DNA from: Rhodospirillales bacterium
GTDB taxonomy: Bacteria > Pseudomonadota > Alphaproteobacteria > Rhodospirillales > WMHbin7
NCBI GenBank assembly: GCA_016214125.1
Contig: JACRPC010000012.1
Location: 124,001-188,000, forward strand
Direction: 5' to 3'
Length of the DNA: 64,000 bases
In this document: piece by piece, positions 4,175 to 16,565 of the stretch
Layout: each line of letters starts with the position of its first letter
Position numbering within the stretch: position 1 is the first letter of the stretch
The notes under the pieces: model-generated
The model's input: only the letters and a program-made list of their open reading frames with translations
What the model was told of the DNA's origin: nothing
The model's database searches: none
Translations under genes and position numbers: made by a program

Positions 4175-6001
4175 TCAGCGCGGCATCTTCCAGACCGCCG
4201 GGCCGCGTTCCAGCCGTGCCGCCAGCAATTGGCGCTGCAATTCCAGCTCCTTGGGCAGGCGGGCGCCGAACTGGGCGAAATGGGCGACCTGCTCTTGGGT
4301 CTCGGCCAGGCCGGCGTCGCGGTCGATCTCCATCAGGCGGCGGAAGGTCTCTTCGCTGAAATCGAGCCCGCGCCAATTGAGATCGTGATGGCGCGGCATG
4401 TAGCCGAACGGGCTTTCCACCGCATGGCCGCGGCCGCGCGCCCGCTCGACGATCCAGGCCAGCACCCGCATGTTCTCGCCATAGCCCGGCCAGATGAAGC
4501 GGCCATGCTCGTCCTTGCGGAACCAGTTGACGCGGAAGATGGAAGGCGCGTTCGCCACCTTGCGGCCGAAATCGAGCCAATGGCCCCAGTAATCGGCCAT
4601 GTTGTAGCCGCAGAAGGGCAGCATCGCCATCGGGTCGCGGCGGATCGCCGCCTGGCCGATGGCGGCCGCCGTCGCCTCGGAGCCCATGGTGGCGGCCAGA
4701 TAGACGCCGTGCGACCAATCGAAGGCCTGATAGACCAAGGGGAAGGTCTTGGAGAGCCGGCCGCCGAAGATGAAGGCCGAGATCGGCACGCCCTGCGGGT
4801 CTTCCCAGGCGGGATCGAGGCTGGGGCATTCCTTGGCCGGCACGGTGAAGCGGGCGTTGGGATGCGCCCCCTTGTTCACGCTTTCCGGCGTCCAATCCTG
4901 GCCACGCCAATCGACGGCGTGGGCGGGCGGATCGCCATCCATGCCCTCCCACCAGACGTCGCCGTCGTCGGTAAGCGCCACGTTGGTGAACAGGCCGTTG
5001 CGATCGAGCATCCTCATCGCGTTCGGATTGGTGCTCATCGAGGTGCCGGGCGCGACGCCGAAATAGCCGGCCTCGGGATTGATGGCGTGCAGGCGGCCAT
5101 CCTTGCCGGGCTTGATCCAGGCGATGTCGTCGCCCACCGTCCACAGCTTCCAGCCGTCGAAGCCCTTGGGCGGGATCATCATGGCGAAATTGGTCTTGCC
5201 GCAGGCCGAGGGGAAGGCGGCGGCGACGTAGGTTTTCTCGCCGGCCGGATTCTCGACCCCCAGGATCAGCATGTGCTCGGCCAGCCAGCCTTCGTCTCTG
5301 GCCATCGCCGAGGCGATGCGCAACGCAAAGCATTTCTTGCCGAGCAGAGCGTTGCCGCCATAACCCGACCCGTAGGACCAGATCGCCCGCTCCTCGGGGA
5401 AATGGACGATGTATTTGGTTTCGTTGCAGGGCCAGGCGACATCCTTCTGGCCCGGCGCCAGCGGCGCGCCCACCGAATGCAGGCAGGGCACGAAAGGCCC
5501 GTCATGCAGGCGATCGAGCACCTTCTGGCCCATGCGGGTCATGATGCGCATGTTGACCACCGCGTAGGGGCTGTCGGTGAGCTGGACGCCGATATGGGCA
5601 ATGGGCGAGCCCAAAGGCCCCATGCTGAAGGGCACCACATAGAGCGTGCGGCCCTTCATCGCGCCGGCGAATAGCTTTTTCAGCGTCGCCTTCATTTCGG
5701 CCGGATCGGCCCAGTTGTTGGTGGGGCCGGCTTCGTCCTTGGATTTCGAGCAGATGAAGGTGCGGTCCTCGACCCGGGCGACGTCGGAGGCGTGCGAGCG
5801 CGCCAGAAAGCAATGCGGCCGCTTCTTGTCGTCGAGCGGAATCAGCGTGCCGGCGGCCACCATCTCGCGGCACAGGCGGTCGTATTCCTCCTGCGAGCCG
5901 TCGCACCAATAAATGCGCTCGGGCTGGCAGAGTTTGACGACCTCATCGATCCAGGCGAGAAGGGCGGCGTTGTTGGTCTTTTTGGCGGCGACGGCGGACA
6001 T
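4175..6001 (-). CDS. pckG: Phosphoenolpyruvate carboxykinase (GTP)
   Basis: A 608-residue protein matching the GTP-dependent class in length and sequence. It interconverts oxaloacetate plus GTP with PEP, CO2 and GDP. Visible: the N-terminal substrate region with TNNWADP, the [13 protein letters not shown] segment, and the kinase P-loop with the class-specific cysteine (FPSACGKTN, 263-271). I prefer the ATG at 6001 (MSAVAAKK) because AGGGAG lies about 10 bases upstream; the ATG at 6010 would leave almost no spacing. It lies 94 bases downstream of the phosphonate operon on the same strand and makes PEP, the substrate of the PEP mutase encoded there. Co-transcription is possible but unproven. 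Confidence 0.96.
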
Positions 6002-6095
6002 TCCGGACATTCTCCCTGGTGAAAAAGGCGGCATCCCGATTTCATCCGCAGCCTAATGGAAGACGAACGAGGATGCAAAGCCGGCGGTTGGGCCC

Positions 6096-6959
6096 CTATA
6101 GGGCGTCGATAACCGCGCTTTCATTGACTTCGGCCAAGCCCTTAATGATCGCCCGTTCGAACAGCGCCAGCGCGGCGGCCGAGACCGGCATCGGCTGACC
6201 CAGGGCCTTGGCCAGGGCCAGGCCATAGGCCGCATCCTTGGCCCGCCAGCGGGTGGCGAAATAGACATCGTCATGGCGGCCCTGGGCCATGCGCCCGACC
6301 ATGGTTTTCACTAAGGGCGAGGCGAGCGCGCCGCTTGAAAGCGCCTGGGCGGCGAGATCGAGATCGAGCCCGGCCTTGGCGGCCAGCCGCATGCCCTCGG
6401 CGAGGGCGGCCAATTGCGCCGCCCCCATCAGATTGGCGACCAGCTTGTAGGCGGTGCCGGTGCCGATGGGTCCGAAATGCAGGATGCGGGCGATATAGGC
6501 GGAGAGCACCGTCTGGGCGGCGGCGATGGTCTCGGACTCGCCCCCGGCCAGAAGCGTCAGGCGGCGTTCGGCGGCGCCGTCGGGCCCGCCGGTCACCGGG
6601 CCATCGAGATAGCGCCAACCGCGACGCTGGGCCAAGGTCGCCAGCTCCTTGACCCAGGCTTGCGAAAGCGTCGAACTTTCGACCGCGATGGCGCCCGGTT
6701 TGGGCGCAACCGAGAGCGCGCCCTCGGGCCCCAGCCAGACGGATTTCGACGCGGCATCGTCGCCGACGATGGCGATCACCAGATCGGCATCCTGGGCCGC
6801 CTGGGCCGGCGTGGCGGCCCAATGCGCGCCGGCCTCAAGCAGCGGCCGGGCGCGCGCCGACGTGCGGTTGTAGACGGTCAGGCGATGGCCGGCCCCAAGA
6901 AGATTGCGGGCCATCGGCAGGCCCATGGCGCCCAGCCCCAGGAATCCGACCGTCGCCAT
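6096..6959 (-). CDS. NAD(P)-dependent beta-hydroxyacid dehydrogenase (3-hydroxyisobutyrate dehydrogenase family)
   Basis: A 287-residue protein with an N-terminal Rossmann motif (GFLGLGAMGLPMA), an NRT loop at 31-33 that suggests NADPH preference, the substrate-binding DGPVTGG at 119-125 and the catalytic lysine in GTAYKLVAN (K172). Members reduce small semialdehydes or oxidise beta-hydroxyacids. It has a strong AAGGGGGG ribosome site and starts 25 bases after the radical SAM gene, as the last gene of the phosphonate operon. In that setting it could reduce phosphonoacetaldehyde or a derived semialdehyde. That role is inferred from position only; a valine- or glyoxylate-pathway role is the alternative. 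Confidence 0.88.
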   Translation of the reverse strand: MATVGFLGLGAMGLPMARNLLGAGHRLTVYNRTSARARPLLEAGAHWAATPAQAAQDADLVIAIVGDDAASKSVWLGPEGALSVAPKPGAIAVESSTLSQAWVKELATLAQRRGWRYLDGPVTGGPDGAAERRLTLLAGGESETIAAAQTVLSAYIARILHFGPIGTGTAYKLVANLMGAAQLAALAEGMRLAAKAGLDLDLAAQALSSGALASPLVKTMVGRMAQGRHDDVYFATRWRAKDAAYGLALAKALGQPMPVSAAALALFERAIIKGLAEVNESAVIDAL

Positions 6960-6984
6960 GGCGCCCCCCTTCCCGCCTGCCCTC

Positions 6985-8472
6985 TCAGCTCATGAACTGG
7001 CGGACATAACGCTCGGCGAATTGGCGGTAGAGCGCGTTGCCTTCGGGTGTGTCGGCCTCGGCCTTCTCGATGTCCGGCCAGTCTTCCTTGGGGAACTTGA
7101 CGTAAAGCGGGAAGGTGCGGTGCAGCCCGACCAGCTCCTTGTAGCGAAGCTGCGGCATGTCCATCGAGGGGCCGAGGCGGTAATCGTTGGCGATCGCGTC
7201 GTCCTTGATGAAGCCTTCCAGCTCGCAGACCCGCCTGAGCGTGCAGCCCTTGTAGGGGCTGAAATAGCTGACCATCACGCCATGCGCCTGGATCTTGCGG
7301 TTAAGCTCGATGGTCTCGAAAATCATCTCGCGGGTTTCGCCGGGGAAGCCGATGATGTTGTTGGCGCTGACCCGGATGCCGGTTTCCTTGAGCAGCTCGA
7401 AGGCGCGCAGGATGGTCTTGTCCTCGATGTTGCGGCCCAAGACGTTCTTGCGCAGCCCCAAATTGCCGCTTTCCAGCCCGACGCTGATGCCCTCGCAGCC
7501 GATCTGGCGCAACAGGCCGGTCTTGTCCTCGTTGATCGATTCGGGGCGGGCCTCGACCCAGAAGGGCAGCTTGATCTTGTCTTGATAAAGCTGGCCGAAG
7601 CGCTCGATGCGGGCCCGGGTGGTGGTGAGGAAACTTTCCGCCACCAGATAGACATAGGCCAGATCGAACGCCGCCTTCTTCTCGGCCATCTCGTCGACCA
7701 GGCGATCGACATCTTGCTCGCGGTAATAGCCGCCATGCTTGTCGTAAAGCTCGCCGAAGCCGGAATTGATGCAGAAGGTGCAGGTGTAGGGGCAGCCGCG
7801 ATTCATCTCGAAGGTGCCGGTGACCGAGATCTTGCCGCCCATCGGCTTCCAGAAGCGGCGCCGGTCGTAGACCGACCAGTCCTGATAGGGCAATTGGCTC
7901 ATGGCGATCGGCGGTCGCACCGGATTCACGTAGAGCTTGCCGTCCTTCTTGACCCAGAGATTGGCGATGGCGGTGATGTCGCCGCCGGCGCGCAGCGTGC
8001 GGCAAAGCTCGACCAGCGCCTCCTCGCCTTCGCCGACGCAGACCATATCGACCGCCGGCTCCTTGATGACGATCTCGGGCGCGAAGGTGGCGTAGGGACC
8101 ACCAGCGATGGTGGGAATGCCGCTGTCCCGAATGGCCTGCAAGAGGCGTACGCCCAGGGGATGCGTCACTTCGATCGAGGACAGCCCGATCAGATGGGGT
8201 TTCCACTCGGCAACCTGGCGGGCGAAATCCTCGACGACGTCGGTTTCTTCCGGAATGATGCCAAGATCCTTGAAATCGGTCTTCTTGACCTGCAAGGCGC
8301 TGGCCCGAGCCTCGTCGCCGGTGATCTCGGCGGTGCGGTAGAAGGTGGTGTCGAACAGCTTGACCTCGATCCCCTCCTTCTTCAGGCAGGCGGCGAGCAT
8401 GCCGATGCCCGCCGTGATCAGCGTGTCCAGCATGGTGTTGCAATTCACCAGCAATACCTTGAATTCCCTCAT
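6985..8472 (-). CDS. B12-binding-domain radical SAM protein
   Basis: A 495-residue protein. Residues about 1-160 form a cobalamin-binding-type Rossmann domain (MREFKVLLVN, then GLSSIEVTHPLG, then TIAGGPYATFAPEI). The canonical DxHxxG is not evident; FDTTFYR sits where it would be expected. The radical SAM cluster motif is C227-PYT-C231-TF-C234, followed by a typical TIM-barrel region (GISVGLESG, ANNIIGFPGET). Such enzymes methylate or rearrange unreactive carbons; Fom3 and PhpK in phosphonate pathways belong to this superfamily. The start overlaps the preceding stop (ATGA), so translation is coupled. It probably modifies a phosphonate intermediate or the molecule receiving it; the reaction is unknown. 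Confidence 0.9.
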   Translation of the reverse strand: MREFKVLLVNCNTMLDTLITAGIGMLAACLKKEGIEVKLFDTTFYRTAEITGDEARASALQVKKTDFKDLGIIPEETDVVEDFARQVAEWKPHLIGLSSIEVTHPLGVRLLQAIRDSGIPTIAGGPYATFAPEIVIKEPAVDMVCVGEGEEALVELCRTLRAGGDITAIANLWVKKDGKLYVNPVRPPIAMSQLPYQDWSVYDRRRFWKPMGGKISVTGTFEMNRGCPYTCTFCINSGFGELYDKHGGYYREQDVDRLVDEMAEKKAAFDLAYVYLVAESFLTTTRARIERFGQLYQDKIKLPFWVEARPESINEDKTGLLRQIGCEGISVGLESGNLGLRKNVLGRNIEDKTILRAFELLKETGIRVSANNIIGFPGETREMIFETIELNRKIQAHGVMVSYFSPYKGCTLRRVCELEGFIKDDAIANDYRLGPSMDMPQLRYKELVGLHRTFPLYVKFPKEDWPDIEKAEADTPEGNALYRQFAERYVRQFMS

Positions 8473-9323
8473 GGCTCGGCTCCCATGTTGCTCGTTAACG
8501 GTGCGACCAGGCCGGCGATCCATTCGTAGCCGGCCAAAATGTCGCGGCTCAGTGTTGCGATCGGATATTCGTAAATGATCTCCGCCCCGGGGCTTCTCTT
8601 TAGCACCAAGGCCAGGCTCTTTGGAACATCGATCCAGCCTTCCTCGGGCGATTGCGAGGGGTGTAAGGGCACATGGCCGTGGACGCGGTTGTGGGCGTCG
8701 TCCTTGGTGTTCCACAGGTGAAGCGAGCGGGTGCGCGGGGCCAGCGCCGCCAGATCGGTGAAATAATCGCGGCCGCGCTTTTGCGCTCCCAAAAAAGTGT
8801 GGCCGATGTCGATGCAGACCCCCAAGTCCGGATGGGGGTCGAGCCGTTCGACGAAGCGGTGGGGATCGTTAAAGCCGTCGGAATAGGCGGCGAACTCGAG
8901 ATCGAGCGCCACCCCGAACCGCCGGCTGGCCTGGGCCATGCGCGCCATCGCCTCGATCGCCAGGGCTTCGGCCTTGGCCGGATCGCGGCTGTCGGTGCCG
9001 CCATAGGTGAGATGGCAGACGGCGCGCCCGGCGCCGTGCCGGGCCGCCAGCTCCAGCGTGTGATCGAGCAGCCGGAAGGACAGCGCGCGCCGTTCGGCAT
9101 CTTCGCACAAGAAGAAACAGGTGATCCCCGACCAGGGGAACCAATCGGGACGGATCACCGGCACATGGAAAGACAGGCGTTCCCGGCCCTCGGCGGCCAG
9201 GCTGGCGCGCAGGGTTTCAAGCTCGGCGAAACGCTCGGGGGCAAAGTCGAACAGCTCGACGCAACCCAGGCCGCGATGGACCAGGCTTTCCGCTTGGGCC
9301 CGGGCGACGGTGCTAGATTCCAT
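8469..9323 (-). CDS. Sugar phosphate isomerase/epimerase-like TIM-barrel protein (AP endonuclease 2 family)
   Basis: A 284-residue protein of the xylose isomerase-like TIM-barrel superfamily. Putative metal ligands occur in the expected order: the Glu of DLEFAAYSDG, the Asp and His of CIDIGHTFLG, the His of LHLWNTKDD and the Glu of IIYEYP. A GAGGAGGG ribosome site precedes the ATG. It overlaps the molybdopterin oxidoreductase gene by 11 bases and the radical SAM gene by 4, placing it firmly inside the phosphonate operon. Family members isomerise or epimerise sugars and hydroxy-acids, or hydrolyse; the substrate here is not known. Confidence 0.82.
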   Translation of the reverse strand: MESSTVARAQAESLVHRGLGCVELFDFAPERFAELETLRASLAAEGRERLSFHVPVIRPDWFPWSGITCFFLCEDAERRALSFRLLDHTLELAARHGAGRAVCHLTYGGTDSRDPAKAEALAIEAMARMAQASRRFGVALDLEFAAYSDGFNDPHRFVERLDPHPDLGVCIDIGHTFLGAQKRGRDYFTDLAALAPRTRSLHLWNTKDDAHNRVHGHVPLHPSQSPEEGWIDVPKSLALVLKRSPGAEIIYEYPIATLSRDILAGYEWIAGLVAPLTSNMGAEP

Positions 9324-11424
9324 CGGCCCTCCTCACCTCGACCAGATTGCTATTGAAGGCAGACCCGCCGCCCAGATCGGCGACGAAATCGGGCGTCGTC
9401 ATGTTGGCGTTGCCGCCGCAGGGGTAATGGCGGCTCCACCATTGGCCGGGCGCCACCGCCACGCCGGGCTTAACCCGCGCCTCGACCACCGCCCAGACCT
9501 CGAACCGGCCGCGATCGTTGAACACCGTCACCCGATCGCCGTTTGCGACACCGCGCCGCGCGGCATCGTCGGGATGAAGATAAAGAGTGGGCCGGATTTC
9601 CTCGGCGGTCAGTCCCGCCTCGCCCGCATAATTGGAATTGAGGAAGGAATGGCCCGAAGGCGTCACGAGGGCCAGCGGATAGCGGGCGAAGCGATCGGGC
9701 GAGCCTTCCTCGCTTTCCTTGGGCGGAAGGTATTCGGGCGCGGCCAGCGTCGCATCGGCAAAGCGAAGGCGTAGGTCCTCGGGCAAGGCGCGGTCGGGAC
9801 CAAAGCGCCGGTCGGTGGTCTCGGCCGCCACCGGCGCCCAGCCCTGGGCGTCCAAACGGGCGCGATCGAGCCCCCGGATCGCCGGATGATCGGCCGCCAG
9901 CAATTCCCGGATCAAGGCGTCGTCATCCTGGGCGAAGCACGCCTCGCCAAAGCCCAGCGCCTGGGCCAGATCGCCGAAAAGCTGGCGGTTGGAACGCGCT
10001 TCGCCCGGGGGCGCCACGATCCTTTGGCTGCGGTAAAGCGCCGGCACGAAGTAGGAGAAGAACAGATCGGCCTGCTCGAAGGCGCTGGTGGCCGGCAAAA
10101 CGATGTCGGCCAAGCGCGCCGTATCGGTAAGGAAAAGATCGTGGACGACGGTAAACAAATCCTCGCGTCCCAAGCCGGCGCGAAGGGCGGACTGGTTGTA
10201 GAGCACCGAGGCCGGATTGCCCTGGGCGACGAACAGGCTGCGGATCGGAAAACCCGTGCCGTTCAGCATGTGGGCGAGATGGATCATGTTGTAGCCAGCC
10301 GCCGGGGTCGGGCGCAATTCCTCGCCCTCCAGCTCGTGCCAATCGTGGGGGAAGATGGTGCTGGTGGGGAAATAGACGCCGCCGCCCGCAAAGCGCAGCG
10401 CGCCGGTCAGGCCAGGCAGGCAGGCGATGCTGCGTAAGGTAAGTCCGCCATTCGAATGGCGCTGGCAACCGGGACCGACGCTGATGAAGCTGTGCCGATG
10501 TTCGCCATAGAGGCGGGCGAAGGCTTCGATTTCGGCCACCGTAAGGCCGGTCAGCCCGGCGACGCGCTGGGGTGGGTAATCGGCAAGGCGGCGGGCCAAT
10601 TCCTCGAAACCCATTGTGGCGCGGGCGACGAAATCGGCGTCGTGGCGCCCATCGCGCACCAGCGCATGCATCACGCCCAGCGCCAAGGCGGCGTCGCTGC
10701 CCGGCTTGGGTTGCAGCACCAGATCGGCCCCTTCGGCGCCACGGATGCGGACCGGATTGACTACCACTAGCTTGGCGCCCCGGGCGCGCGCCTCTTTGAG
10801 GGTGGGCAGTTGATGGATGTTGGTGGCGGCCGGATTGACGCCCCACAGCACGACCAGCGAACAGCCGCCGATGGCGGTGGGATCAGGACTGATCGAACCG
10901 CCCATGGTTTGGCGATAGCCGGTTCGCCCCGCCCTTGTGCAGATGGTGCGGATCATCTGCAAACTGCCCAGCCGGTTGAAGAAGCGCTTGGGCGCGATGT
11001 GGCCCTGCACCAGACCCTCGGTGCCCGAGCCGAAGAAGGGGAGGATGGCGTAAGGCCCGTCCGTCGCAAGGATGGCTTGCCAGCGCTGGGCGATGGTGGC
11101 GATCGCCTCCGCCCAGCCGATCGGGCGGAATTCGCCGCTCCCCTTCGGCCCGCCCCGGAGAAGCGGGCGGCGCAGTCTTTCGGGGCCGTTCAGGCGGGCC
11201 GGCAGTTCGGCGATCTTGCGGCAGATGAAACCCTGCGTCACCGGATGATCGGGATCGCCGGCCAGCGCGATCAGCCGCCCCTCGGCCACACAGGCCCGCA
11301 GGCGGCAGCGATCAGCGCAATCGTGCGGGCAGACGGCGGACCGCCAATCGGGCGCCGCATCAACCGATCGCTCGCTGCGTTTGGCCGCTTGGCCCATACG
11401 CGTTTCCATTCTCCCTTCGGCCAT
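9313..11424 (-). CDS. Molybdopterin-dependent oxidoreductase, stand-alone catalytic subunit
   Basis: A 703-residue member of the DMSO reductase/anaerobic dehydrogenase family. The N-terminal [4Fe-4S] ligands are C32-x3-C36-x3-C40-x27-C68 (CPHDCADRC, then GFICRK). The molybdopterin domains and the C-terminal barrel (VTPSGHSFLNS, DRVTVFNDRGRFEVWA) are complete. There is no Tat signal, so it should be cytoplasmic. No iron-sulfur or membrane partner subunit is encoded nearby, so its electron partner is unknown. It sits between phosphonopyruvate decarboxylase (15-base gap) and the TIM-barrel gene (11-base overlap). METRM at 11409 is an alternative start with an AAGGGAG site close upstream. The substrate is unknown. 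Confidence 0.9.
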   Translation of the reverse strand: MAEGRMETRMGQAAKRSERSVDAAPDWRSAVCPHDCADRCRLRACVAEGRLIALAGDPDHPVTQGFICRKIAELPARLNGPERLRRPLLRGGPKGSGEFRPIGWAEAIATIAQRWQAILATDGPYAILPFFGSGTEGLVQGHIAPKRFFNRLGSLQMIRTICTRAGRTGYRQTMGGSISPDPTAIGGCSLVVLWGVNPAATNIHQLPTLKEARARGAKLVVVNPVRIRGAEGADLVLQPKPGSDAALALGVMHALVRDGRHDADFVARATMGFEELARRLADYPPQRVAGLTGLTVAEIEAFARLYGEHRHSFISVGPGCQRHSNGGLTLRSIACLPGLTGALRFAGGGVYFPTSTIFPHDWHELEGEELRPTPAAGYNMIHLAHMLNGTGFPIRSLFVAQGNPASVLYNQSALRAGLGREDLFTVVHDLFLTDTARLADIVLPATSAFEQADLFFSYFVPALYRSQRIVAPPGEARSNRQLFGDLAQALGFGEACFAQDDDALIRELLAADHPAIRGLDRARLDAQGWAPVAAETTDRRFGPDRALPEDLRLRFADATLAAPEYLPPKESEEGSPDRFARYPLALVTPSGHSFLNSNYAGEAGLTAEEIRPTLYLHPDDAARRGVANGDRVTVFNDRGRFEVWAVVEARVKPGVAVAPGQWWSRHYPCGGNANMTTPDFVADLGGGSAFNSNLVEVRRADGI

Positions 11425-11439
11425 CCTGGCGAGGCCCCT

Positions 11440-12576
11440 TTACCCCGCCAGAAAAGCTTGAAATCGCCGGGCCACGTCCTGGGGCTTGATCTTGGGCCGG
11501 CCAACCTTGTCCAGCCCGCCCGGCGCCAAGCGAACATGCAGCAGGCAGGGCCCCGGCTGGGCCAGCGCCGCCAGGAAAGCCTGGACGAAGCCCTCCAGAC
11601 TGTCGAGACCGATCCCTTGCGCGTAGCCGCAGGCGACCGCGACGCGGGCGAAATCGACCCCGGCCGACACCGTGGCCTGGCCGCCGGTGGAATCATGGAC
11701 GCCGTTGTCGAGCACGATATGGATCAGATTGGCCGGATGCTGCCAGCCGATGGTCGCCATGTTGCCCATCTTCATTAGCGCCGCGCCGTCGCCATCGAGC
11801 ACGATCACGGGGCGCGTGGCGTTGAGCGCCACGCCCAGCCCCATGGCGCTGGCCCCACCCATCGACCCCACCTGATAGAGCTGCTGCGGCCGATCGGCCA
11901 GGGTGTAAAGCTCGCGCCCACACAGCCCGGTGGTGGCGACGATGGCGGCGGCATCGGGCACATGCGCCAAGAGCGCGTTCAGGATATCGACCCGCCGGGG
12001 CCGCGCCCCGCCTTGGCACCCATCGGTCCAGCGACCCGGGCTGGGGGGCTTGGCCGGCGCTTTATCGAGCGGCGAATCCGCGACCGCCCCTTTGGCCATC
12101 ACCAGCACGAAAGGTCGCTGGCTTGCGCCCATCATCGCCACCGCCTGATCGAGGGTGGGGCCGATGGCGGCGTCGGTATCGGGAAAATTGGCCCAGGGCA
12201 GGCGCAGAGTTTCGATCAGCTCGTGGGTGATCTCGCCCATCAGTTCGTGCTGGGGCTCGTCGGCCAGACCGGGCTGGCCGCGCCAGGTGGTGATCAGAAG
12301 CGTCGGAATACGGAACGGATCGTTCAAGGAGGTGAGCGGATTGACCGTGTTGCCCAGCCCGGAATTCTGGCAGAGCACCACCGGCATCCGCCCGGCCAGC
12401 CAGGCGCCGGCGGCGATCGCCACCGCCTCGCCCTCGCTGGCGGCCCCGACATAGCGAAGCCGGGGATCGGAAATCACCCGGTTGATGAGCGGCGTGAGAA
12501 AGGAACAGGGCACGCCGGTGAAGAAATCGAATCCCCGCCTTTGGAGCGCGCCCAGAAAGGCGCCGGCCTCGATCAT
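11440..12576 (-). CDS. ppd: Phosphonopyruvate decarboxylase
   Basis: A 378-residue TPP enzyme. The N-terminal pyrimidine-binding domain begins GVPCSFLTPLIN and contains the Glu of GAASEGEAVAIA. The C-terminal domain carries the TPP/metal motif GDGAALMKMGNMA followed by LDNGVHDSTGGQ, characteristic of this family. It decarboxylates phosphonopyruvate to phosphonoacetaldehyde, the irreversible step that pulls the unfavourable PEP mutase reaction forward. A GAGGGG ribosome site precedes the ATG, which begins 7 bases after the pepM stop. The pairing with PEP mutase makes the phosphonate assignment secure. Confidence 0.96.
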   Translation of the reverse strand: MIEAGAFLGALQRRGFDFFTGVPCSFLTPLINRVISDPRLRYVGAASEGEAVAIAAGAWLAGRMPVVLCQNSGLGNTVNPLTSLNDPFRIPTLLITTWRGQPGLADEPQHELMGEITHELIETLRLPWANFPDTDAAIGPTLDQAVAMMGASQRPFVLVMAKGAVADSPLDKAPAKPPSPGRWTDGCQGGARPRRVDILNALLAHVPDAAAIVATTGLCGRELYTLADRPQQLYQVGSMGGASAMGLGVALNATRPVIVLDGDGAALMKMGNMATIGWQHPANLIHIVLDNGVHDSTGGQATVSAGVDFARVAVACGYAQGIGLDSLEGFVQAFLAALAQPGPCLLHVRLAPGGLDKVGRPKIKPQDVARRFQAFLAG

Positions 12577-12583
12577 CGGCCCC

Positions 12584-14212
12584 TCACAGCATGTTGCGCA
12601 GGTTGGCGAGATCGAAGGCGTCGTTGACGTTGCACCAGTTGCCGCCGATGTATTTCACCCGCACTTCGGTGCCGCCGGCCACCAGACGGTTGAACAAATC
12701 GGGCATCGAGGCCTGGTCGAGCGTGCCTTCGGCCCGCATGCGCTGCAATTCCGCCTTGGCTTTTTCCGAACCCTTGGGGGTGAAGGCGGCGACGCCGATC
12801 CATTCGCCATGCGCCTGATCGGGTGCCAGGGTGCCGATCGCCGCCAGGGCGGTGGCGCCTTCATGGAAGGGGTCGGTCGAATAGGGCTTGGTGCAGCGGC
12901 ACAGATCGCGCGAGTTGGCGGCCCGGCCCGGACCGCGCGCCAAGGTCCAATCGACGGCGAGGGCGACCTCGGCCTCGGTGTCGAGCAGAATCTGGGCCAC
13001 GAAATCGCGGAAATAGACATCGCCGTAGGAGACCAGACAGGTCCCTTCCAGCAGATCGGCCGCTTTCGCCAGCGAGGCCAATTCGCCGGTGCTGTCCCAG
13101 GCCGGGTTGGTGACCAGCTTGATGCCCGAGACCTTGATGGTCTCGGCCTTGTAGCCGCCGACCACGGCGATCCGGCTTATGCCGGCGTTGTTGAGCGCCG
13201 CCACCTGGCGGTCCAGTAGCGGCCGGCCGCGAATGTCGAGCATGCATTTGGGCTTTTCGCGGGTCAGCTCTTCCAGGCTCTTGCCGCGCGAGGCGGCCAG
13301 CACGATGGCGCCGGCATCGTGGCGCTTGCCGGGCAGATAGCGCTTCTCGGCCTCGGCGATCTCGTGGTCGCCGGTGATCTCGAAGACGTCGTTTAAGGGC
13401 GTCACGTTGCCCTCGACGTTGATCAGGCTTTGCTCTTCGAAGATGCGGCGCGAGGTTTCCCGCATCGCCTGCATGGCGCTGCGCAGATTGTGGTTGGCCC
13501 AGATGATGGTCGAGATGCCGGCCTGGCGGAAATGCTCGGTCGGCGTGGCGTAGTATTTGGTGGGCACGATCACCAGGGGCGCCCGGTTCGCCCATTCCTT
13601 GGCGAAGGTGAGGATTTCATCGGCGCTCGACTTCTTGGAATGGATGAGGATGCCGTCGGCGCCGGCTTGGCGATAGGCCTCGGCGCGCTTCAAAGCCTCG
13701 GCCATGCCGTGGCCGGCGATCAGCGCTTCGACTCGGGCGATGATGCAGAAATCGGCATCGGTCTGGCTGTCCTTGCCGGCCTTGATCTTGCCGGCGAACT
13801 CGGCGATCTCGGCCAAGGGCTGCTTGTTCTCGATGAAGGAATTGGTTTTGGGAAAGACCTTGTCCTCGATGCAGACGGCGGCGATGCCGCGCTGGATCAG
13901 CTTGGTCACCAGGCGGCGGAAATTGTTGAAATCGCCATAGCCAGTGTCGCCGTCGAGCAAGATCGGAATCGAGGTCGATTCGGCCATGAACTCGACCACC
14001 TCCAGGACCTGGGTCCAGGAGGCCTCGTTGCGGTCGCGCACCCCCAATGCGGTCGAGATCGACAGCCCGGACCCCCAAATGCCCTCGAAGCCGGCCTTTT
14101 CGACGATGCGGGCCGACAGGCCGTCATGCGCCTCCATCAGGAAGGCGAGTTCCTTGCGCAGCAGAAGATCGCGGAACTTGCGCGTCTTGGAAACCGAAGG
14201 GTTGTGATTCAT
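12584..14212 (-). CDS. pepM: Phosphoenolpyruvate mutase fused to a nucleotidyltransferase domain
   Basis: A 542-residue fusion. Residues about 11-285 are PEP mutase with the diagnostic [10 protein letters not shown] motif (116-125) and the metal-site region [10 protein letters not shown] (85-94). It converts PEP to phosphonopyruvate and makes the C-P bond. Residues about 301-542 form a nucleotidyltransferase domain ([41 protein letters not shown]) like the PntC cytidylyltransferases that activate 2-aminoethylphosphonate as the CMP derivative. The usual LAAGxGxRL signature reads LAASRGKSL here. I chose the ATG; a TTG one codon earlier is unlikely. First gene of the operon. Confidence 0.95.
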
Positions 14213-14248
14213 CAATAGGTGTCCGCCGCCGACCGTTGCAGATTTTGT

Positions 14249-14277
14249 AACATTTCGGACCCATGGGGTGGTGTCAA
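14249..14277 (-). promoter_or_regulatory. Possible promoter of the phosphonate operon
   Basis: On the minus strand a consensus -35 TTGACA (14272-14277) is followed after 17 bases by AATGTT (14249-14254), a weak -10. This puts transcription start about 30 bases before the pepM ATG. The -10 match is poor, so an activator may be needed. No operator palindrome was recognised. Confidence 0.4.
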
Positions 14278-14342
14278 GAAATTAGCGCCCCGATCGGCTC
14301 CAAACCGTGGCCCGGACCACGATTCTTCCCCCAAACGGCGCA

Positions 14343-14372
14343 TTTACAGGCCGGGCGCAAGGGCGCTATATA
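14343..14372 (+). promoter_or_regulatory. Probable promoter of the methylmalonyl-CoA mutase gene
   Basis: TTTACA (14343-14348) and TATATA (14367-14372) are separated by 18 bases, giving a leader of about 35 bases before the ATG at 14415. The intergenic region of about 200 bases separates this promoter from the divergent phosphonate operon promoter. Confidence 0.45.
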
Positions 14373-14414
14373 ACCCCGATGCGGCCGTGCGACCGGGCCG
14401 CCGGAGGATGGACC

Positions 14415-16565
<2,151 letters not shown>

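Follow-up and report, generated by a model that had tools for sequence, protein, structure and literature searches.

A 64,000-nucleotide stretch of the genome of a Rhodospirillales bacterium (assembly GCA_016214125.1, contig JACRPC010000012.1, positions 124,001 to 188,000 of the forward strand), referred to here as the window, carries on its minus strand a six-gene block at 6096-14212, in which genes for phosphoenolpyruvate (PEP) mutase (pepM) and phosphonopyruvate decarboxylase (ppd) are followed by four accessory genes encoding a molybdopterin oxidoreductase, a TIM barrel protein, a radical SAM protein and a dehydrogenase. We favour, with modest confidence and as a statement about pathway and role only, the reading that this operon feeds an aminoethylphosphonate (AEP)-type phosphonolipid pathway with a probably oxygen-independent tailoring module. 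Our confidence is considerably greater that the four accessory genes, which form a module of their own, work in a phosphonate pathway. The module's probable task is the tailoring of a membrane lipid or surface molecule that bears a phosphonate, and the lipid is perhaps hopanoid-linked (a phosphono-hopanoid).

All six minus-strand open reading frames (ORFs) lie where the initial annotation had placed them, with the gaps (7, 15 and 25 bases) and overlaps (11 and 4 bases) that it had described. The first (12584-14212) encodes a PEP mutase that scores 393.8 bits against NCBIfam PEP_mutase (cut-off 319.55) and carries the ten-residue motif EDKXXXXXNS, and the second (11440-12576) a Ppd that scores 423.7 bits against TIGR03297 (cut-off 312.5). 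With both enzymes over curated cut-offs, the earlier claim of a capacity to make C-P bonds is well founded. Judged by family membership, PEP mutase would make phosphonopyruvate and Ppd phosphonoacetaldehyde. The domain fused C-terminally to the PEP mutase is a MobA-like nucleotidyltransferase (Pfam NTP_transf_3, 51.9 bits, cut-off 27). This fusion is not unusual: NTP_transf_3 fusions account for 32.9% of 1485 PEP mutases in a published inventory, and both the fusions and Ppd are ordinary (PMC6697681). The fused domain (12584-13320, minus strand) has a variant of the glycine-rich motif, LAASRG in the window, that is kept across genomes: LAASRG was found in 18/20 rows and IAASRG and VAATRG in the remaining two, and LAAGxGxRL in all 15 rows of stand-alone nucleotidyltransferases where the pattern was found (the rows include some duplicates of one genome). 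The fused domain may differ from the stand-alone copies in nucleotide and substrate.

The route would be continued by enzymes encoded elsewhere in the window genome (G000). An AEP transaminase, the mark of an AEP-lipid or Pnt-type pathway, is encoded on contig C40 at 171720-172784 (TIGR02326, 469.3 bits, cut-off 400.8; TIGR03301, 467.9 bits, cut-off 360.8), and contig C24 carries two CDP-alcohol phosphotransferase genes (429-1619; Pfam, 53.4 and 58.7 bits, cut-off 22) together with a second, stand-alone nucleotidyltransferase gene. AEP would be activated as CMP-AEP (CMP, cytidine monophosphate) and passed to a lipid alcohol, with the phosphotransferases as putative CMP-phosphonate users. With two activating domains and a pair of phosphotransferases, the pathway may handle two activated head groups or proceed in two steps. 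The module would modify either the phosphonate head group or the receiving polyol, in a tailoring step independent of oxygen; its enzyme types are able to work without oxygen. The scheme resembles the phosphonyl tailoring (Pnt) pathways, in which Ppd and AEP transaminase accompany a fusion of PEP mutase with a PntC-type nucleotidyltransferase (PMC6697681), in its fusion of PEP mutase to a MobA-like nucleotidyltransferase, its Ppd and its AEP transaminase elsewhere in the genome; it differs from them in the four-gene module, which was found in no such pathway, the variant motif of the fused domain and the second, canonical nucleotidyltransferase. The majority of bacterial PEP mutases are believed to act in the synthesis of phosphonates of the cell surface, with the later steps largely unknown (PMC6697681).

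To define the distribution of the module, genome contigs were scanned with the radical SAM protein, which gave 22 loci: 21 at 63-76% identity, in Alphaproteobacteria, Gammaproteobacteria and Planctomycetota, and one at 32%. Together with a genome search of the window's order, the scan yielded 25 distinct carriers including the window genome, namely 12 from the order, one other alphaproteobacterium (L024), six genomes filed as Gammaproteobacteria or Proteobacteria (L027-L031 and L038), and six Planctomycetota; genomes present under two numbers were counted once (G004/G150, G015/G151, G017/G154, G066/G153, G121/G155, G152/G265, G157/G172 and G158/G328). The molybdoenzyme, TIM barrel, radical SAM and dehydrogenase genes are contiguous in that order in 13/19 proteobacterial carriers, where two of the 13 contigs (L020 and L023) end inside the dehydrogenase gene. 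Among the other six, the dehydrogenase gene is not found there in L024 and G240, the molybdoenzyme gene is not found there in G328, and the set is split in G011, G017 and G039. The TIM barrel and radical SAM genes are paired in Planctomycetota too. Within the order, 12/317 genomes have an orthologue (at least 68% identity) and 16 more match only at 38% or less; in a set of 398 genomes sampled from the phylum, the module was confined to that of the window (P0005 match, E <= 1e-150). The radical SAM proteins of the module form one fully supported clade, separate from paralogs of 36% identity (long branches were flagged), and their alignment of 23 rows has a mean column identity of 75%. The module is rare yet strongly conserved.

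These results bear out the claim that the four accessory genes belong together, and the idea that they do so only here was rejected because the block recurs in other genomes. A conserved six-gene order, which the initial annotation had proposed to look for, was rejected as well: apart from the window, pepM-ppd adjoins the module solely in L020, where the two are divergent. The annotation had held that the pathway link would fail if the accessory genes adjoined pepM-ppd only here and were scattered in relatives; the adjacency is indeed nearly unique, and the other proteobacterial carriers that have both the block and pepM keep them at separate places. As a side observation, ubiU and ubiV, genes for oxygen-independent ubiquinone synthesis, follow the module in L028-L030, with a 4-base overlap of dehydrogenase and ubiU in L030, and lie near it, upstream on the other strand, in L031 (identified by NCBIfam on L030 and by tblastn for the other loci).

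The tie between module and phosphonate genes rests on co-occurrence and on physical linkage. A PEP mutase over the cut-off was found in 17/19 proteobacterial carriers. Within the order, where 77/317 genomes have one, it is present in 10/12 module genomes compared with 67/305 others (p = 1.9e-5, Fisher's test; here and below, p-values ignore relatedness, and related genomes are not independent). A Ppd match at E <= 1e-30 was obtained in 23/25 carriers, over the cut-off in 15. Physical links to phosphonate genes exist in 7/25 carriers: the window, L020/L184, G240 and four Planctomycetota. In L020/L184, pepM-ppd is divergent from the module across a 267-bp gap. In G240, one strand carries genes for the molybdoenzyme (just 33-35% identical), the TIM barrel, the radical SAM protein, an AEP transaminase over the cut-off and a nucleotidyltransferase; an unfused PEP mutase gene (open frame of 360 amino acids) lies 7.7 kb off, and a split Ppd pair about 43 kb away. 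The genome of G240, two contigs listed as 100% complete, may be that of an isolate. The linked copies are spread over different parts of the radical SAM tree. Of the single pathway that had been proposed for the six genes, the phosphonate link stands; a fixed six-gene pathway is not supported.

Besides the relatedness of the genomes, several findings count against a phosphonolipid role for the module. It is distant from pepM in most proteobacterial carriers, and two carriers, G066 and G328, have no PEP mutase over the cut-off; in G328 the Ppd match, too, is weak. Conversely, 67 PEP mutase genomes of the order do without the module, so it is not required for phosphonates in general. The setting in G240 resembles, by eye, a glycan cluster rather than a lipid one, and its pepM (L182 and L195) lies, again by eye, in a polysaccharide gene region. 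Among the families listed (for the molybdoenzyme 25 of 26, for the radical SAM protein 25 of 33), no accessory protein passes a curated NCBIfam cut-off, so family membership assigns a reaction to none of the four. Finally, PEP mutase was detected in 0/6 Planctomycetota with TIGR02320 at E <= 0.001, and PF13714 at E <= 0.1 gave in these six just one 13-bit match, below the cut-off, in G165. The absence of PEP mutase in Planctomycetota implies either another source of phosphonopyruvate or the same assembly line used for another head group.

The Planctomycetota (G164-G169; L032-L037, L089 and L108-L110) have Ppd-like, AEP-transaminase-like, nucleotidyltransferase and CDP-alcohol phosphotransferase genes without a detectable PEP mutase. 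Their cluster runs from a gene that has no NCBIfam match at E <= 1e-8 and no Pfam match at E <= 0.001 (L109:3449-4354) through Ppd alpha, Ppd beta, AEP transaminase plus nucleotidyltransferase and CDP-alcohol phosphotransferase to the molybdoenzyme, isocitrate dehydrogenase, TIM barrel, radical SAM and HpnL-like genes. A single contig holds the complete cluster in G166, where it adjoins hpnI, hpnJ and hpnK; in G164, G165 and G168 its parts are found on different contigs. The transaminase and nucleotidyltransferase are fused in G164, G165 and G166 and separate in G168. The molybdoenzyme gene is on the same contig in L034 and L036, and on another contig with phosphonate-type genes in G164 and G165. 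A TIM barrel gene precedes the radical SAM gene in the five Planctomycetota whose contig reaches there, and in 6/6 an HpnL-like flippase gene, and no dehydrogenase gene, follows it. In L034, the Ppd halves score similarly for phosphonopyruvate and sulfopyruvate decarboxylase, and the transaminase falls slightly below the PhnW-AepZ cut-off (359.2 vs 360.8).

Lipid or glycan decoration had been suggested in the initial annotation, and lipid is the better guess: a CDP-alcohol phosphotransferase gene lies near pepM-ppd in 11 of the 17 PEP mutase-bearing carriers. On these stretches of 4.5 to 18 kb, whose neighbour counts are lower bounds, hpnA, hpnH or hpnN was found in 8/17 and an AEP transaminase gene in 7/17 (8 with G240), and stand-alone nucleotidyltransferase, HpnL-like and PhyH-type oxygenase genes also occur. 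A PhyH protein from a non-carrier (G002) is related to methylphosphonate hydroxylase (107.7 bits, cut-off 500). HpnH is encoded in 72/77 PEP mutase genomes of the order compared with 109/240 others (p = 1.4e-15), at least 24 pairs of PEP mutase and HpnH genes in the 77 genomes lie within 12 kb, and, outside the Alphaproteobacteria, five of six proteobacterial carriers have PEP mutase near hopanoid genes. The window genome has squalene-hopene cyclase and HpnH, on a contig other than that of pepM. Linkage of PEP mutase to hopanoid genes was described in Acetobacteraceae in 2021 and read as an undiscovered terpene-phosphonate (PMC8776678); the carriers and the order match that case, but the four-gene module is no part of the account in the available sections of PMC8776678, and pepM and hopanoid genes are on separate contigs in the window genome. 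Clustering of pepM-ppd with hopanoid genes was also observed across many Rhodospirillales-like and some gammaproteobacterial genomes, with pepM-ppd in or beside clusters containing hpnA, hpnH and hpnN at L071-L074, L076, L079, L080, L084, L192 and L193.

This context allows an alternative in which the module acts on the side chain of a hopanoid or other polyol lipid, for example by epimerising or deoxygenating it, and the phosphonate is added by ordinary enzymes and is linked to the module only by a shared acceptor. The presence of HpnH in 22/25 carriers, the hpnI-hpnK genes beside the G166 cluster, the HpnL-like gene in all six Planctomycetota and the sugar-epimerase-like fold of the TIM barrel (see below) agree with it. 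We nevertheless regard it as rather unlikely, because the association of module and HpnH is weak in the order (10/12 vs 171/305, p = 0.05), because no hpnA, hpnH or hpnN was found within the proteobacterial module loci themselves, and because the G240 module adjoins an AEP transaminase gene instead of hopanoid genes. Two related ideas were dropped: that the module is a general missing step of bacteriohopanetetrol synthesis (of the order's 317 genomes, 181 have HpnH and 12 the module), and that it takes the place of the PhyH-type oxygenase beside pepM when oxygen is absent (G004 and G017 have both). A more far-reaching form of the phosphonolipid reading, that the module performs a new oxygen-independent tailoring of phosphono-hopanoids while the Planctomycetota head group comes from an unknown C-P-forming enzyme or is a non-phosphonate analogue, is speculative and in our view improbable.

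What the module might do was examined through the folds and invariant residues of its proteins. The molybdoenzyme (9313-11424, minus strand) is a single-subunit member of the DMSO-reductase family (Pfam Molybdopterin, Molydop_binding and Molybdop_Fe4S4 above cut-offs, that is, with Fe4S4 and dinucleotide-binding domains), and no partner subunit is encoded within the operon. Its nearest solved relatives are FdhF, formate dehydrogenase H and acetylene hydratase, and all 21 aligned rows keep the Cys of a TIC motif, at the probable position of the metal ligand. The TIM barrel protein (8469-9323, minus strand) belongs to the xylose-isomerase-like superfamily (Pfam AP_endonuc_2, 70.9 bits, cut-off 31.1). 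Its AF2 model (pLDDT 94.5) has a sugar-epimerase-like fold, with Z 16.5-19.7 for the best 50 entries, ketose 3-epimerases and relatives on top, and Z 17.9 at 25% identity for TTHB071. A metal-type site (E143, D172, H202 and E252) is invariant, as are H53, H104 and H175; the Glu, Asp, His, Glu set and the extra His would be compatible with metal binding in either an isomerase or a phosphodiesterase. Its only NCBIfam match, CbiR (NF041277), reaches 33 bits against a cut-off of 105.

The radical SAM protein (6985-8472, minus strand) has Radical_SAM and B12-binding domains (Pfam, 67.4 bits, cut-off 29.5, and 58.4 bits, cut-off 32.1) and the CxxxCxxC motif as CPYTCTFC; it is of the B12 type by its domains and may bind and use cobalamin. 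The model (pLDDT 75) fits methylase and dehydratase folds alike, with Z 24.2 and an rmsd of 3.6 over 371 residues for the methylase MgmA and Z 22.9 and 3.9 over 404 for the diol dehydratase AprD4, the best solved sequence match (E 2.3e-12). AprD4, of the same fold, is active without cobalamin. The module protein falls below the AprD4 equivalog cut-off (62.6 bits vs 500) and belongs to a separate clade. The dehydrogenase (6096-6959, minus strand; Pfam NAD_binding_2 and NAD_binding_11 above cut-offs) is by sequence a superfamily member of the beta-hydroxyacid dehydrogenases of the tartronate-semialdehyde-reductase/HIBADH type, and it falls short of both curated cut-offs (169.7 vs 340.75 and 154.9 vs 291.6). 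Paralogs of the radical SAM protein at about 36% identity (L196-L203) are in glycan clusters at different loci; NeuB is encoded in one of these clusters (L197), and others have genes for an HpaI-type aldolase (L198), an AP_endonuc_2 protein (L202) and a cytidylyltransferase (L203). Such genes might provide for the synthesis of uncommon acidic sugars.

The contents of the paralog clusters favour polyol or sugar-like substrates for the radical SAM protein. Our preferred version of the chemistry, which we put forward only tentatively, has the radical SAM protein and the TIM barrel act on such a substrate: the former by AprD4-like diol chemistry or B12-dependent methylation, the latter as a metal-dependent isomerase or hydrolase. 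The molybdoenzyme would contribute a hydration or a redox reaction, and reduction of a carbonyl would fall to the dehydrogenase in those carriers that have one.

An oxygen-independent role unrelated to phosphonates, for example in quinone or sugar-acid metabolism, would make the phosphonate neighbourhood partly chance or a matter of shared lifestyle. The ubiU and ubiV genes at L028-L031, the glycan-cluster paralogs and the six Planctomycetota without PEP mutase lend it some weight. The co-occurrence with PEP mutase and three kinds of physical link to phosphonate-type genes, spread across the radical SAM tree, speak for the phosphonate role instead, and ubiU or ubiV is near the module in just 4/25 carriers; we hold the unrelated role to be unlikely. 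Very unlikely is a soluble, fosfomycin-like product made by B12 radical SAM methylation and TIM barrel hydrolysis of a CMP-activated phosphonate: the logic and the set of a PEP mutase-nucleotidyltransferase fusion, Ppd and a B12-type radical SAM protein parallel Fom1, Fom2 and Fom3, and CbiR, the one NCBIfam family matched by the TIM barrel, is a cobamide phosphodiesterase, but no Fom1-type fusion is present, as the cytidylyltransferase of Fom1 is N-terminal (PMC6697681) and the window's domain is C-terminal and of the MobA-like family, the window adds a molybdoenzyme and a TIM barrel, and the presence of an AEP transaminase and of CDP-alcohol phosphotransferases indicates AEP lipids. The matches listed for the radical SAM protein (25 of 33 families) include no Fom3 model.

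Taken with the published record, the surface-phosphonate pathway, the PEP mutase-nucleotidyltransferase fusion and the PEP mutase-hopanoid linkage are known, whereas a search of open-licence papers gave no description of the tailoring module. A compact conserved module in hopanoid-gene carriers of the Alphaproteobacteria, Gammaproteobacteria and Planctomycetota offers defined genes for study and would link phosphonate and hopanoid research. To our knowledge, natural C-P bonds start at PEP mutase, and the PEP-mutase-free Planctomycetota version would test this rule directly.

The six genes are presumed from their spacing to be co-transcribed. A codon-usage gene caller called all six ORFs coding and favoured a start at 11397 for the molybdoenzyme, with which the gap of 15 bases would grow to 42; this caller misreads several high-GC loci (e.g. 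L073 and L077), and neighbourhoods were redone by tblastn. A consensus scan of 5900-14450 gave no sigma-70-like promoter and seven terminator-like sites (7 vs 6.6 in shuffles). Gene calling placed no PEP carboxykinase-like gene beside the block in L018. In the window, a gene on the operon's strand, 94 bases beyond its downstream end (4175-6001, minus strand), looks by eye like that of a GTP-type PEP carboxykinase, a candidate that would supply PEP, the substrate of PEP mutase.

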